From Mangrovibacterium lignilyticum (GTDB taxonomy: Bacteria; Bacteroidota; Bacteroidia; Bacteroidales; Prolixibacteraceae): a stretch of 64,000 nucleotides of DNA. Positions within the stretch are counted from its first letter, which is position 1; the number at the start of each line of letters is the position of its first letter. This document shows positions 49,476-54,422 of the stretch, piece after piece. The DNA is taken from assembly GCF_010882175.1 (NCBI RefSeq), contig NZ_WKLH01000001.1, positions 1,386,021-1,450,020 of the forward strand, written 5' to 3'. Both the position numbers and the translations under genes were made by a program. Below the pieces are notes generated by a model that saw only the letters and a list, made by a program, of their open reading frames with translations, had not been told where the DNA came from and did no database searches.

Positions 49476-51707
49476 ATGATGAAATCGACATACCCATTTA
49501 AAGAAGGACACTGGAATGAAGCCATTGATGTCCGTGACTTTGTTTCCAAAAACATTAGTACCTACTCCGGTGATCACCATTTTCTGGAAGGACCAACCGA
49601 AAATACACAAGCACTCTGGGAAATTTGCAAGGCAGCCCTAAAAGAAGAACGGGCAAAAAAAGGCTTATTGGCTGTTGACACCAAGATCGTTTCCACGATT
49701 AGCTCCTTTCCTGCCGGATATATCGATAAGGACAAGGAAGTGATTGTTGGTTTGCAAACTGACCAGCTTCTAAAACGGGCGATGAAGCCTTACGGTGGTT
49801 TCAAAGTGGTGAGCCGCGCCTTGGCTGAACATGGATACCAACCGGATGCGAATATTGCCGAAACCTTCGAGAAATATGCCAAAACCCATAACGACGGCGT
49901 TTTTGATACCTACACATCTGAGATCAGAACTTTCCGTTCACTTGGATTTTTAACCGGCCTTCCGGACAATTACGCTCGCGGACGAATCATTGGAGATTAC
50001 CGACGGGTTGCACTTTACGGCATCAACCGGTTGATTGAAGGCAAAAAAGAAGACCTCGAAAATATTACCGGTCCGATGACCGACGCGACCATTCGTTTGC
50101 GTGAGGAAGTGGCTGAACAGATCAAAGCCTTGTACGACATGATTAAAATGGGTAAGGCTTACGGTTTGGATCTGTCCCGTCCTGCAGAAAACGGACAGGA
50201 AGCCGTTCAGTGGACCTATATGGGCTACCTGGCAGCTGTGAAAGAACAAGACGGTGCCGCCATGTCGCTGGGAAGTGTTTCTTCATTCCTCGATATTTTT
50301 ATTGAACGCGACCTGCAGGCCGGCATCATTACCGAAGATCAGGCGCAGGAATACATCGACCAGTTTGTGATGAAATTGCGCATGGTCCGTCACCTGCGTA
50401 TGGAAGCTTACGAACAGATTTTTGCGGGTGATCCAACCTGGGTTACCGAATCGATCGGTGGCATGTTAATGGATGGTCGCAGTAAAGTAACCAAAACGGC
50501 TTTCCGTTTCCTGAACACCCTTTACAACCTGGGACCGTCACCCGAGCCGAACATTACCATTTTGTGGTCGCAACAATTGCCTGAACCTTTCAAGGCTTAT
50601 TGCGCCAAAGTATCGATCGACACCTCATCCATTCAATATGAGAACGACGACCTGATGCGAACCACCAGCTGCTCCGATGACTATGGAATCGCTTGTTGCG
50701 TATCGTTCCAGGAATTGGGTAAACACATTCAGTTTTTCGGTGCCCGTACCAACCTGGCAAAAACACTGTTGCTGGCCCTTAACAAAGGGAAATGCGAAAA
50801 TACCGGAACTCAGGTGGTCAATGGAATCCCCGCGATTGCGAGTGACTACCTTGATTACGACGAAGTGATTTCGAATTTCAAAATAGCCATGAAAGAAGTT
50901 GCCCGTGTGTACAATGAATCGATGAACATCATTCATTACATGCACGACAAATATTATTACGAGAAAGGACAAATGGCGTTGATTGATACCAATCCGCGTA
51001 TCAACCTGGCTTATGGTATTGCGGGCTTATCGATTGTGGCCGACTCACTTTCTGCGATCAAACATGCCAAAGTGAAACCTGTTCGGAATGAAGATGGGCT
51101 GACCATTGACTTCCAGATTGAAGGAGATTTCCCGAAATACGGAAACGACGATGACCGTGTAGACCATATTGCCCGCGATGTGGTTGCCCACTTCAGCAAT
51201 GAACTGAAGAAACTACCGGTTTACAAAAACGCCAATCCAACCATGTCGGTGTTAACCATTACATCGAATGTGGTGTATGGTAAGAAAACCGGCGCTACGC
51301 CCGACGGACGTGGTAAAGGAGTACCTTTTGCACCGGGAGCAAATCCCATGCACGGACGCGACACGCATGGTGCAATTGCATCGCTGAACTCGGTCGCAAA
51401 GATTGACTACAAGGATTCGCAGGATGGTATTTCAAACACCTTCTCGATCGTTCCAAAATCATTGGGAAGAAACGAGGAAGAACGCATTGCCAACCTGGTC
51501 GCCACACTCGATGGTTACTTTGGAAAGAATGCGCAACACCTGAATGTGAATGTGCTCGATCGCGAACTGCTGGAAGATGCGATGGCTCATCCGGAGGAAT
51601 ACCCGCAGTTGACAATCCGTGTTTCAGGCTATGCGGTGAACTTTGTCCGTTTGTCGCGCGAACAGCAAATGGAAGTGCTTACCCGCTCTTTCCACGATTC
51701 GATGTAA
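49476..51707 (+). CDS. pflB: Formate C-acetyltransferase (pyruvate formate-lyase)
   Basis: The 743-residue glycyl radical enzyme has the catalytic double Cys in [11 protein letters not shown] and the C-terminal glycyl radical loop [11 protein letters not shown]. It converts pyruvate and CoA to acetyl-CoA and formate under anaerobic conditions. The activase gene follows 98 bases downstream across a stem-loop. Both radical-site Gly and active Cys are present. An anaerobic or oxygen-sensitive lifestyle is indicated. Confidence 0.97.
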
Positions 51708-51737
51708 TTGAAATTTGAACAATCACGCATAAAATAA

Positions 51738-51771
51738 ACCCGTGTTTCGGACTGAACAGCCGGACACGGGT
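51738..51771 (+). terminator. Stem-loop between pflB and pflA
   Basis: ACCCGTGT / ACACGGGT (8 bp) with inner CGG/CCG pairs is followed by a short T-rich stretch (ATCTTTTCC). It may be a partial terminator or processing site giving more pflB than pflA transcript, as expected for catalyst versus activase. Confidence 0.65.
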
Positions 51772-51805
51772 ATCTTTTCCTTAATCAGAACAACCAAAAC
51801 CAACG

Positions 51806-52555
51806 ATGAGCGATTCCGCCGACATGCTAAACATTCATTCCATCGAGTCCTTTGGCACCCATGATGGCCCCGGCATCCGGCTGGTCGTTTTTCTGCAAGG
51901 TTGCAACCTGAAATGCCTCTATTGTCAAAATGCCGATACCATTAAAAACGAAGGTGGACGATTGATTGAAACCGAAGAGCTTGTCAGGCGGGCGGTCAAT
52001 ATGAAAACTTACTTCGGAAAAACAGGAGGAGTCACGGTTTCGGGAGGCGAACCTTTGCTGCAAAGTAAAAAGCTCATTCCACTTTTCGAAAAGCTTCGGC
52101 AGGAAGGCATTCATACCAATATCGACACGAACGCAACGGTTTCGAATGTTTATTCACAACAGTTAATCAGTGAGCTGTCCGATTTGGTCATGTTCGACAT
52201 GAAAAATACAACCAGCGACGGTTTTGAAAAACTAACAGGCCGCGATGGCTTGCAAACCGCTTTGGACTTAATCGCCTTGCGGGAGAAAAGTCAAAAGCCC
52301 TACTGGCTGCGCTATGTGCTAATCCCGGGCTACACGGATCATCCGGATCAGCTGAATTGGCTGGGAAAGAAGTTAGGAACAAATACCTGGCTGGAACGGG
52401 TGGAATTGCTGCCCTATCACAAACTCGGGGAATATAAATGGGAAGCTTTAGGCGAAAAGTACCAACTAACCGATGTGTCTGAAAATACACCCGAACAGAT
52501 TCAACAGGCGCACGAAATTCTGAAGAAATACTTTAAGCTGGTCATCGCTAAATAA
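51806..52555 (+). CDS. pflA: Pyruvate formate-lyase activating enzyme
   Basis: The 249-residue radical SAM protein has the cluster motif C-N-L-K-C-L-Y-C (C-x3-C-x2-C), G-G-V-T-V-S-G-G-E-P-L, and the start S-F-G-T-H-D-G-P-G-I-R. It forms the glycyl radical on PflB. An internal ATG at 51824 is an alternative start. It is followed by the formate channel gene after 24 bases. Confidence 0.95.
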   Translation: MSDSADMLNIHSIESFGTHDGPGIRLVVFLQGCNLKCLYCQNADTIKNEGGRLIETEELVRRAVNMKTYFGKTGGVTVSGGEPLLQSKKLIPLFEKLRQEGIHTNIDTNATVSNVYSQQLISELSDLVMFDMKNTTSDGFEKLTGRDGLQTALDLIALREKSQKPYWLRYVLIPGYTDHPDQLNWLGKKLGTNTWLERVELLPYHKLGEYKWEALGEKYQLTDVSENTPEQIQQAHEILKKYFKLVIAK

Positions 52556-52579
52556 ACCGAAACACTAACATCAACACCT

Positions 52580-53374
52580 ATGAGCTTAAACACACCACCA
52601 CGGATACTGGAAATTGCCGGCGAAACGGCCATCACAAAGGACAACTATTCAGTTAAAAAGATCTTGGTACTCAGCTTTCTGGCCGGCGCTTATATTTCCT
52701 TCGGGGGTCTGCTGTCCATTATCGTGGGCGGAGGTATTCCCGAAATTGCAGCCACCAATCCCGGTATTGCCAAATTCATTTTTGGAGCGACTTTCCCGGT
52801 GGGACTGATGATGGTGGTGATGGCAGGTGCCGAACTGTTTACCGGGAACAATGCCTATTTTATGCCGAATGTTCTTAATGGCAGCCAAAGCTGGACAGCA
52901 CCGCTGCGTAACTGGATCCTGGTATATATCGGTAACTTTATCGGCTCCATATTGGTCGCCTATTTTTTGGTTCACCTCACTGATCTGGTCAGTCAGGAGC
53001 CCTGGCATCAAACGGTGATGAATATTGCTGAAAGCAAAACGTCAAACCCGTTCTACAAAACATTCCTAAAAGGGATTGGCGCTAACTGGCTGGTTTGCCT
53101 GGCCATGTGGATGGGGATGTCGGCACAGCACACAACAGGAAAAATACTGGGAATCTGGTGGCCGGTCATGACTTTCGTCGCCCTGGGCTACGAACACTCC
53201 ATCGCCAACATGTTTTTCATCCCGCTGGCTATTTTTGAGGGCTCATCGGTCACCTGGTCCGATTTTGTCTTCCAAAACCTGATTGGTGCGACATTAGGCA
53301 ACATTGTTGGAGGTGCTTTCTTTGTGGGCACGTTGTATTGGTATGCTTACGGCAAACGAAAAACAGATCGCTAG
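52580..53374 (+). CDS. focA: Formate/nitrite transporter family channel
   Basis: The 264-residue product has six hydrophobic segments and FNT family motifs: A-G-A-Y-I-S-F-G-G, G-A-E-L-F-T-G-N-N, N-W-I-L-V-Y-I-G-N-F-I-G-S, N-W-L-V-C-L-A-M-W-M and G-A-T-L-G-N-I-V-G-G-A. It passes formate across the inner membrane. Following pflB-pflA, it should handle formate from pyruvate and from HutG. Confidence 0.94.
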   Translation: MSLNTPPRILEIAGETAITKDNYSVKKILVLSFLAGAYISFGGLLSIIVGGGIPEIAATNPGIAKFIFGATFPVGLMMVVMAGAELFTGNNAYFMPNVLNGSQSWTAPLRNWILVYIGNFIGSILVAYFLVHLTDLVSQEPWHQTVMNIAESKTSNPFYKTFLKGIGANWLVCLAMWMGMSAQHTTGKILGIWWPVMTFVALGYEHSIANMFFIPLAIFEGSSVTWSDFVFQNLIGATLGNIVGGAFFVGTLYWYAYGKRKTDR

Positions 53375-53664
53375 CCGACGGAAACAAGCTCAATTTACCG
53401 GTTACACGACAACAACGCACTTTCGTTTGGCAGAATCGTGCCGTTTCCAATGATCATCCCGGAGCACAGCATCGTAAATTTCAGTTATCAATCCGGCGGC
53501 CAGCGGCATCTTGTCGTTCCGGCAGCATGTAAGGTTTATAACGAGAAAGATATAACCAATAAAGATGCCTGTCTGATTTACAGTGGGATAAACACGAGTT
53601 ACAACGCCCCATCTCTTGTTTACTAAACCGTTTTCCCTGTTTATATTGGCAGCGATACCGTCTA

Positions 53665-54153
53665 TTACCAAGATGTACAATGTATATGAGCCCATATACG
53701 ACCATATTTTAAGCGGATACAATTAACAATTTTGAAGATATGGTTGTATATGCCAATTATACGGTCATACAATTCATTTATATGGTTGTATATGCCATTT
53801 ATATGGTCATATAATTCAGTTATATGGTTGTACATGCCATTTATATGGTCATATAATTCATTTATATGGTTGTATATGCCATTTATATGGTCGTATAATT
53901 CAGTTATATGGTTGTACATGCCATTTATATGGTCGTATAATTCGTTTATATGGTTGTATATGCCATTTATATGGTCGTATAATTCGTTTATATGGTTGTA
54001 TATGCCATTTATATGGTTGTACTTTAGTGGATATTGTTCAATAAAAGCCCCTCCCCGGCCGTCATTTTGCCCGGAAGGCTTTGTTTTTAACTTTTCACGG
54101 AGGTAGGTGTCAGCAAAATTGATGAATACCCGTCTTTGATCGGCAGTGCCGCA
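53665..54153 (-). pseudogene. Start-less coiled-coil frame over the 42-bp repeats
   Basis: The frame is open for 162 codons from 54153 to a stop at 53665. Its first ~50 codons read like genuine protein (V-F-I-N-F-A-D-T-Y-L-R-E-K-L-K-T, then G-G-A-F-I-E-Q-Y-P-L-K) and lead into about twelve heptads of the type Y-N-H-I-N-E-L, Y-D-H-I-N-G-I. Ile occupies position a and Leu/Ile/Met position d, a textbook coiled coil. No ATG, GTG or TTG occurs before the repeats; the first in-frame start is an ATG inside them at 53919. It is either a 5'-truncated gene, a gene with a frameshift near 54154, or one with an unusual start. Family unknown. Confidence 0.55.
53738..54022. repeat. 42-bp tandem repeat array
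   Basis: Six full 42-bp units and a partial seventh are laid head to tail, starting at 53738, 53780, 53822, 53864, 53906, 53948 and 53990. Each unit is made of two related 21-bp halves. Base differences are mainly silent or conservative on the minus strand (T/N, G/E, I/M swaps in the heptad). Confidence 0.95.
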
Positions 54154-54239
54154 CTAATTTCGGTTTCCCAAATGCGCTAAGATCTTCGAAATTGCCGCAA
54201 GTGTTTCTTCCGGGCTTATTTTCCCGGCTCCTGCTGCAT

Positions 54240-54422
54240 CTATTCCATCTCTGCCATTAACTGCAGAATACACTTTCGGCACAGGCAACGACTGAAAGTA
54301 GCGCCAATAAAGTCCTGAATCTTTTCAGGAATCTGCAGATCGGCACATTCACAAGTCAGATCGCCGTAGCAATTCAGATCGGCGCCGCAATTATCACAGG
54401 CTGGTGCTTCGTAGTTATTCAT
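54240..54422 (-). CDS. Small cysteine-rich CWC-type protein
   Basis: The 60-residue product has C-D-N-C, C-x-C (E-C-A) and C-L-C-R-K-C motifs in the order of the cysteine-rich CWC family, with F-I-G-A-T-F-S-R-C-L-C before the last pair. Likely a zinc-binding small protein; function unknown. It stands alone on the minus strand. Confidence 0.75.
   Translation of the reverse strand: MNNYEAPACDNCGADLNCYGDLTCECADLQIPEKIQDFIGATFSRCLCRKCILQLMAEME

Follow-up and report, generated by a model that had tools for sequence, protein, structure and literature searches.

A tandem array in Mangrovibacterium lignilyticum that translates into coiled-coil heptads is very probably an orphan copy of a gene-associated array, and it is probably non-coding. 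Coordinates are those of the window, the whole stretch of 64,000 nucleotides that was analysed, and the features are collected in Table 1. The window array would be a truncated orphan, with parent arrays that belong upstream of genes for proteins of ~206 aa containing a helical bundle and an fn3 domain. Such arrays vary in sequence from locus to locus but mostly repeat every two helical turns, which favours a DNA device over a decayed coiled-coil protein. The full explanation, in which a non-coding orphan of an fn3-gene-associated array acts as a phased double-stranded DNA platform, is the best that we can offer, and it is held tentatively, a little short of an even chance.

Table 1. Features of the array region in the window
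Feature	Position	Strand	Remarks
Tandem array	53738-54021	minus	21-bp unit alternating as 42-bp pairs; core ACCATATAA nearly invariant (TRF, unit table)
379-bp unit (leader remnant, array and tail)	53674-54052	minus	also at C11 (91%) and C9 (89%)
Leader motif TATTGAACAATATCC	54029-54043	minus	
Degenerate tail of the unit	53674-53737	minus	ends ...ATACATTGTACA
Longest start-codon ORF in the heptad frame	53665-53919	minus	84 aa, ATG within the array; judged no gene
Apparent lineage-specific insertion	53370-54245		stretch missing in two of three other same-genus genomes
Left neighbour, formate/nitrite-transporter-like gene	52580-53374	plus	points at the array
Right neighbour, 60-aa cysteine-rich CWC protein (PF14375)	54240-54422	minus	points at the array

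The window array and its copies

An earlier note on this DNA had described a 42-bp array encoding heptads on the minus strand, with no start codon ahead of it, and on both counts it was right. The array is real, its minus-strand translation reads Y[ND]HI[NT][GE][ILM] in a frame that is open over 53665-54153 right after a stop, and the first ATG, GTG or TTG of that frame, at 53919, already lies within the array. TRF places the array at 53738-54017 with period 42 (6.7 copies, 94% match, 0% indels, score 476) and, at period 21, counts 13.5 copies over 53738-54021. The open frame is itself unremarkable, since the plus strand also has an open ORF of 124 aa, and further frames of the array are likewise stop-free over long stretches. 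Searches of Pfam and NCBIfam for homologues of the heptad protein returned matches of the coiled-coil kind, all of them below curated cut-offs, and a pattern scan of a genome-contig collection for the array unit found none.

A search of the genome with this stretch of the window gave two more long matches, at C11:116094-116471 (91%) and C9:1691000-1691377 (89%), and all three copies have the 379-bp unit of Table 1 in common. The C11 and C9 copies sit inside an 1838-bp segment that is 98.3% identical between two unlike genomic sites and that includes a 206-aa gene (helical bundle and fn3), with the array upstream of the gene. The motif TATTGAACAATATNC occurs at five places in the genome, each of which starts a 21-bp array; these are the three copies of the unit and two other 21-bp arrays with unrelated repeat units. 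Homology of the window copy with the other two begins at 54052, about ten codons ahead of the array. The roughly 50 plausible leading codons that had been proposed are indeed open (44 codons before the array), but for about 34 of these 44 the other copies offer nothing comparable. The suggestion of a sequencing indel or a non-standard start near 54154 is rejected, as neither of the other copies shows homology at that point. As for a truncated fibre or oligomerisation protein, the truncation stands, given two longer copies in the genome, but the fibre or oligomerisation protein is unsupported.

The window copy is intergenic, between two convergent genes. The product encoded on its left is one that we take to be a formate/nitrite transporter, judging by its translation and neighbours, and the row at 49476-53374 presumably consists of a pyruvate-formate-lyase-like gene, a radical-SAM activator and the formate-transporter-like gene, all named from their translations. 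Two of the three other genomes in the genus lack about 800 bp at this site; matched neighbours lie 75 bases apart in one (G003) and 40 in the other (G002), against 875 and 888, respectively, for the same neighbours in the window. Because the site is apparently empty in G003 and G002, the window array most likely arrived with a lineage-specific insertion, the alternative, on this comparison of sequences, being loss in both relatives. In the third genome of the genus (G001; L178, 2366-3029), 7-bp tandem repeats were observed at the site homologous to the window insertion. No fn3-family gene or clear remnant of one was found in the window (best E 0.026), which makes the window array an orphan, and no gene remnant with E < 0.025 was found beside 14 orphan arrays.

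A search of relatives for heptad proteins also turned up other 21-bp arrays, but that search was biased by its query and was replaced by sampling of the own genome. A lag scan of forty evenly spaced 20-kb samples (800 kb; threshold 62 of 120) found 21 arrays, 13 of them with a lag of 21, 22, 41, 42, 82, 83 or 105; lags of 41, 82 and 22 are no multiples of three. The same scan gave 8 arrays in 400 kb of G085, one of the helical kind (lag 42), 6 in 200 kb of G200 (two at lag 11, one at 126), and 8 in 200 kb of G231 (one at 126). Orphan arrays occur in convergent intergenic regions at the window, L035, L039 and L067, where they are not upstream operators. Those at L035 (8650-9060), L039 (11760-11945) and L045 (10630-10850) repeat every 41 bp and contain two palindromes, TCGAAANTTTCGA and GTTAAAATTTAAC, and the two array types adjoin in L035. 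Repeats of other kinds were also seen: at L058 (6742-8636 and 8789-11443), a tandem repeat with a 352-bp unit extends for about 1.9 kb (97% match), with 8-bp TCGTGTCT repeats no more than a few kilobases away, and the G866 samples (L239-L258) hold many 7-, 8-, 14- and 16-bp tandem repeats, a class apart from the two-turn arrays.

Arrays upstream of the helix-bundle and fn3 genes

The pairing seen in the longer copies recurs widely, as 88 of 110 distinct loci from Bacteroidota and Methylococcaceae have a tandem array of helical lag within 1.2 kb upstream of the family gene. The first set had one upstream in 40 of 46 loci and downstream in none, the misses being L084 (lag 7), L087, L092, L093 and the partial gene matches L105 and L110. 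The list of helical lags was drawn up after early loci had been seen, and further loci were therefore tested with the list unchanged; arrays were found at 21 of 27 loci in one Bacteroidota family, 21 of 29 in two Methylococcaceae genomes, and 9 of 12 further loci. An any-lag test, independent of the list and run at a higher threshold, found arrays upstream at 82 of 109 loci and downstream at 4 (two loci counted twice); with the helical-lag list, a downstream array occurred at 1 of the 109 loci with enough sequence. Of 516 control genes in the own genome, 16 had an array, and in G866 the array was present at 9 of 10 family genes versus 0 of 263 control genes. Paralogues are not independent of one another; the association recurs in several families of two phyla. 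The 22 loci that lack an array by this test include full-length members (e.g., L186, L231 and L266).

Several decisions define these counts. Repeated loci were removed from the 110, namely L209, L210 and L182 (hits) and L183 (a miss), which equal L091, L095, L089 and L087, respectively; L101, L111 and L074 were omitted as duplicates of L081, L082 and L073, and L234 was omitted with 5 bp of upstream sequence. The decayed own copies L079 and L080 lie outside the 46. Counted as misses were the partial matches already named, L084 (although TRF also gives 21), L190 (lag 88), L192 (lag 43), and four loci with less than 700 bp upstream (L093, L224, L227 and L268). The loci tested cover 30 of the 37 matches in G873 and G874 and, for the one family, 27 plus 12 among the matches listed. 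The gene coordinate is the start of the profile match, so that distances carry an uncertainty of a few tens of bases; the median array edges lie 511 and 149 bases upstream of it, and promoter-like sites showed no enrichment between array and gene.

Members of the gene family, including the relative of the 206-aa gene that lies downstream of the L040 array, were found in Sunxiuqinia, Paludibacter, Parapedobacter, Niastella, Longitalea and other Bacteroidota and in metagenome-assembled genomes of Methylococcaceae/Crenothrix. The family is rare in a sample of the phylum, with matches in 9 of 395 genomes, two of which (G468 and G503) match in the C-terminal part only; within one family of genomes it occurs in 42 of 294 among the matches listed. 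Two Methylococcaceae genomes carry 24 (G873, all in one 4.3-Mb genome) and 13 (G874) family matches, and, most of the loci found being in Bacteroidota, these gammaproteobacterial copies possibly reflect transfer and expansion. An AlphaFold2 model built with 19 relatives (mean pLDDT 90.2, pTM 0.54) predicts an N-terminal helical bundle and a C-terminal fn3 domain. Sequence searches against Pfam, NCBIfam, PHROGs and PDB gave nothing convincing past the fn3 part, which is also what all of the best 50 Foldseek matches in the PDB cover. The proteins are not consistently basic, and many of the N-terminal halves are acidic. Carriage by phages, plasmids or viruses was considered and rejected, with no match when one member served as query, including against a plasmid collection, and a profile in one search; a comparison of 19 members with the PADLOC models of known anti-phage defence likewise gave no match (best E 0.015). 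Decayed remnants of fn3-family genes occur in the own genome at L080 (1501-1988), beside an array, and at L079 (1501-1587), where there is none.

What is conserved in the arrays is their period. When fitted over the range 14-30 bp, it was 21.0 in 72 of 94 arrays and 20.0-20.5 in 14 of 94 (one array counted twice), and the best TRF rows of most family arrays have few or no indels. The sequences, by comparison, turn over. Motifs were compared for 17 loci of G873, 12 of G874 and 5 of the own genome, with arrays in 15, 7 and 5 of them; at least three recurrent 8-mers were held in common by 1 of 105, 0 of 21 and 0 of 10 array pairs, respectively, the test being weak for G874 because several of its arrays have no 8-mer that recurs three times. 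Arrays beside proteins of 83% and 78% identity (L211/L213 and L237/L238) share no motif, and at L081/L082, where the proteins are 88% identical, unlike arrays are flanked by DNA of 78% identity on the upstream side and 85% on the downstream side. The unit consensus is dyad-symmetric at p<0.05 in 22 of 64 arrays and without a significant dyad in 42 of 64, and the window's own unit has none. The L077 palindrome with its A/T flanks was counted 8 times across the genome; two arrays (L077 and L080) account for 7 of these and one further 21-bp array for the last. As the palindrome is confined to three 21-bp arrays, the idea that one array motif serves a chromosome-wide regulon was rejected.

Coding, RNA and known repeat systems

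The array could conceivably be a coiled-coil-like protein repeat, translated in the longer copies (L009/L010) and coupled to the fn3 gene, with the window copy a 5′-truncated pseudogene. We regard this as improbable, while the window's own lineage offers what signal there is. Both longer copies possess an ATG-started 246-aa frame that runs through the array to a stop overlapping the fn3 start, and all five substitutions in the non-array part of this frame are synonymous (about 0.001 if a quarter of changes are silent). Of 9 loci from the window's genus, 8 have a sense frame without stops over 90% or more of the array, and 3 have such an antisense frame. The silent-type variation that had been reported between units depends on the counting scheme: with 42-bp units, 9 of 12 base differences are third positions, an excess, with six distinct variant codons and 5 synonymous to 5 nonsynonymous differences, whereas with 21-bp units 5 codon differences are synonymous and 24 nonsynonymous. 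Elsewhere the codon signal is absent. The homologous leader of L081/L082 has 3 synonymous and 18 nonsynonymous differences, spread 6/7/8 over the codon positions without bias, and the alignment of their linkers contains frame-changing gaps. Seventeen open sense arrays vary by 1.15, 1.10 and 1.16 bits at the three codon positions (p 0.46), with no third-position excess, and the sense frame is stop-free across 95% or more of the array at 13 of 40 loci, the antisense frame at 8 of 40. At L077, in the same genome, the fn3 gene is intact, yet the longest open sense frame spans 0.34 of the array, and the frame tail of L073 bears no resemblance, by eye, to that of L076. Related arrays have lags of 40, 41, 62, 80 and 81 bp, and at 40, 41 or 80 a single reading frame cannot repeat. 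The signs of purifying selection on the heptad frame are mixed, with the L009/L010 comparison in favour, the window units weakly so, and the open-frame counts, the L081/L082 leader and the variation by codon position against. In general the arrays are not coding, although the two results from the window's lineage point the other way there. A warning follows, as 21-bp arrays mimic coiled-coil heptads when translated. An RNA device, in which transcription of the array would yield the 5′ leader of the fn3 mRNA, with dyads folding into hairpins that attenuate or recruit a protein, is just as doubtful. Its position upstream of the gene match, the dyad-symmetric units in one third of arrays and the stem-loop layout of some units (e.g., L089, by eye) would suit such a leader. 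However, mismatched dyad positions number 337 for G-T and 320 for A-C, with no preference for G.U on the sense strand (of 29 arrays used, G-T exceeds A-C in 10 and A-C exceeds G-T in 18), the window unit folds only moderately better than its shuffles (z -1.73), and arrays from five loci have no Rfam match at the gathering threshold. Moreover, a period of two DNA turns has no obvious meaning for single-stranded RNA.

To our knowledge, a pairing of array and gene in which geometry is conserved and sequence is not matches no known system, and the best-ranked results from the open-access literature, with most subscription papers outside its scope, hold no account of the arrays or of their link to the fn3 gene. 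Iterons of plasmid replication origins are direct repeats about two helical turns apart, with a sequence proper to each replicon, that are read by the neighbouring Rep protein. The present arrays resemble them as direct repeats of whole-turn spacing beside a gene, with a sequence that differs by locus, but the neighbouring protein here is a helix-bundle and fn3 protein without a Rep-like Pfam match, and proteins of 78-88% identity face unlike arrays. REP sequences (REP/BIME) are conserved, and their RAYT partner is a Y1 transposase. The present arrays resemble that system in that a gene has repeats of its own while orphan repeats lie at other genomic sites, but their sequences are unconserved, and no Y1-type transposase was detected in the family by Pfam, PHROGs or NCBIfam or among the best 50 Foldseek matches in the PDB.

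Two further kinds of tandem repeat are also close in some respects. The TAACTGA heptamers have a fixed 7-bp unit that, in the principal genome of that study, is found for the most part immediately ahead of start codons (PMC4679880). They are likewise intergenic tandem repeats of gammaproteobacteria and some Bacteroidetes, but they have one fixed unit, and no linked gene family is named in the abstract (PMC4679880). BrickBuilt of Porphyromonas gingivalis has a 23-nt unit and 19 copies in strain ATCC 33277, and it is similar in that a leader and a tail flank short tandem repeats, with copies that are dispersed and intergenic, in a member of the Bacteroidota (PMC4596501). Here too there are dispersed copies, three of them, with a leader and a tail in common; of the small terminal inverted repeats and target-site duplication that mark a BrickBuilt-type MITE, no clear sign was seen by eye. 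BrickBuilt differs in its single 23-nt unit, and the part of its description consulted mentions no associated gene family (PMC4596501); the window unit is 21/42 bp, family arrays are mostly 20-21 bp, different loci have unrelated units, and the array is followed by a gene family. On this model the arrays would be selfish minisatellites, neutral repeats spread by a MITE-like or cassette element, with the 21-bp period reflecting how repeats arise or persist and no function for the host. Where orphan copies like the window's are concerned it is the chief competing view, and, taken alone, the window orphan would be a BrickBuilt-like minisatellite, with its leader-array-tail layout, dispersed orphan copies and intergenic position, to which the fast turnover of array sequence may be added. 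For the arrays at large we think it unlikely, if less so than a protein or RNA role. A 20-21 bp period across two phyla with unrelated units is hard to explain by drift, as is the steady position upstream of one gene family, and few or no indels are found in the best TRF rows of most family arrays.

A phased platform and its possible meaning

The reading preferred here is that the array works as double-stranded DNA and that its conserved property would be geometry, not sequence, namely sites every 20-21 bp, dyad-symmetric in about a third of arrays. Sites with this spacing would therefore lie on one face of the helix. The two-turn period and the location ahead of a single gene family are the most constant observations, and the simplest mechanism to go with them is a phased one. 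Most likely, such an array would be a phased platform for the assembly of a cooperative DNA-binding protein, much like an operator or iteron cluster, and it may control or serve the downstream cassette. The window copy would have entered with its insertion and has no gene of its own. The protein-binding platform is putative and a shade more tentative than the explanation as a whole; that protein binds there, that the array controls the fn3 gene and that the cassette is mobile are all points that we infer. It is possible that the fn3 protein reads its own array, but this is not favoured because closely related proteins face unlike arrays and the proteins are not consistently basic. A bolder idea, to which we give little credence, is that of a dispersed element in which the helix-bundle and fn3 protein is paired with a locus-specific array, its sequence rewritten repeatedly and its two-turn geometry kept. 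Each array might then be a private address for one paralogue, with up to two dozen in a genome, read or written by a machine that responds to helical phase and not to any set sequence.

The family occurs in two phyla, and beside most of its tested members the spacing of the array is conserved and its sequence is not, which is the reverse of ordinary regulatory DNA, in which it is the sequence that is kept. If this geometry is read by a protein, then loci would be marked in a way that is invisible to sequence-motif searches. If the geometry is a mere by-product, it would tell how tandem repeats arise with a two-turn step. Under either reading, the pairing of array and gene provides an exact starting point for experiments.
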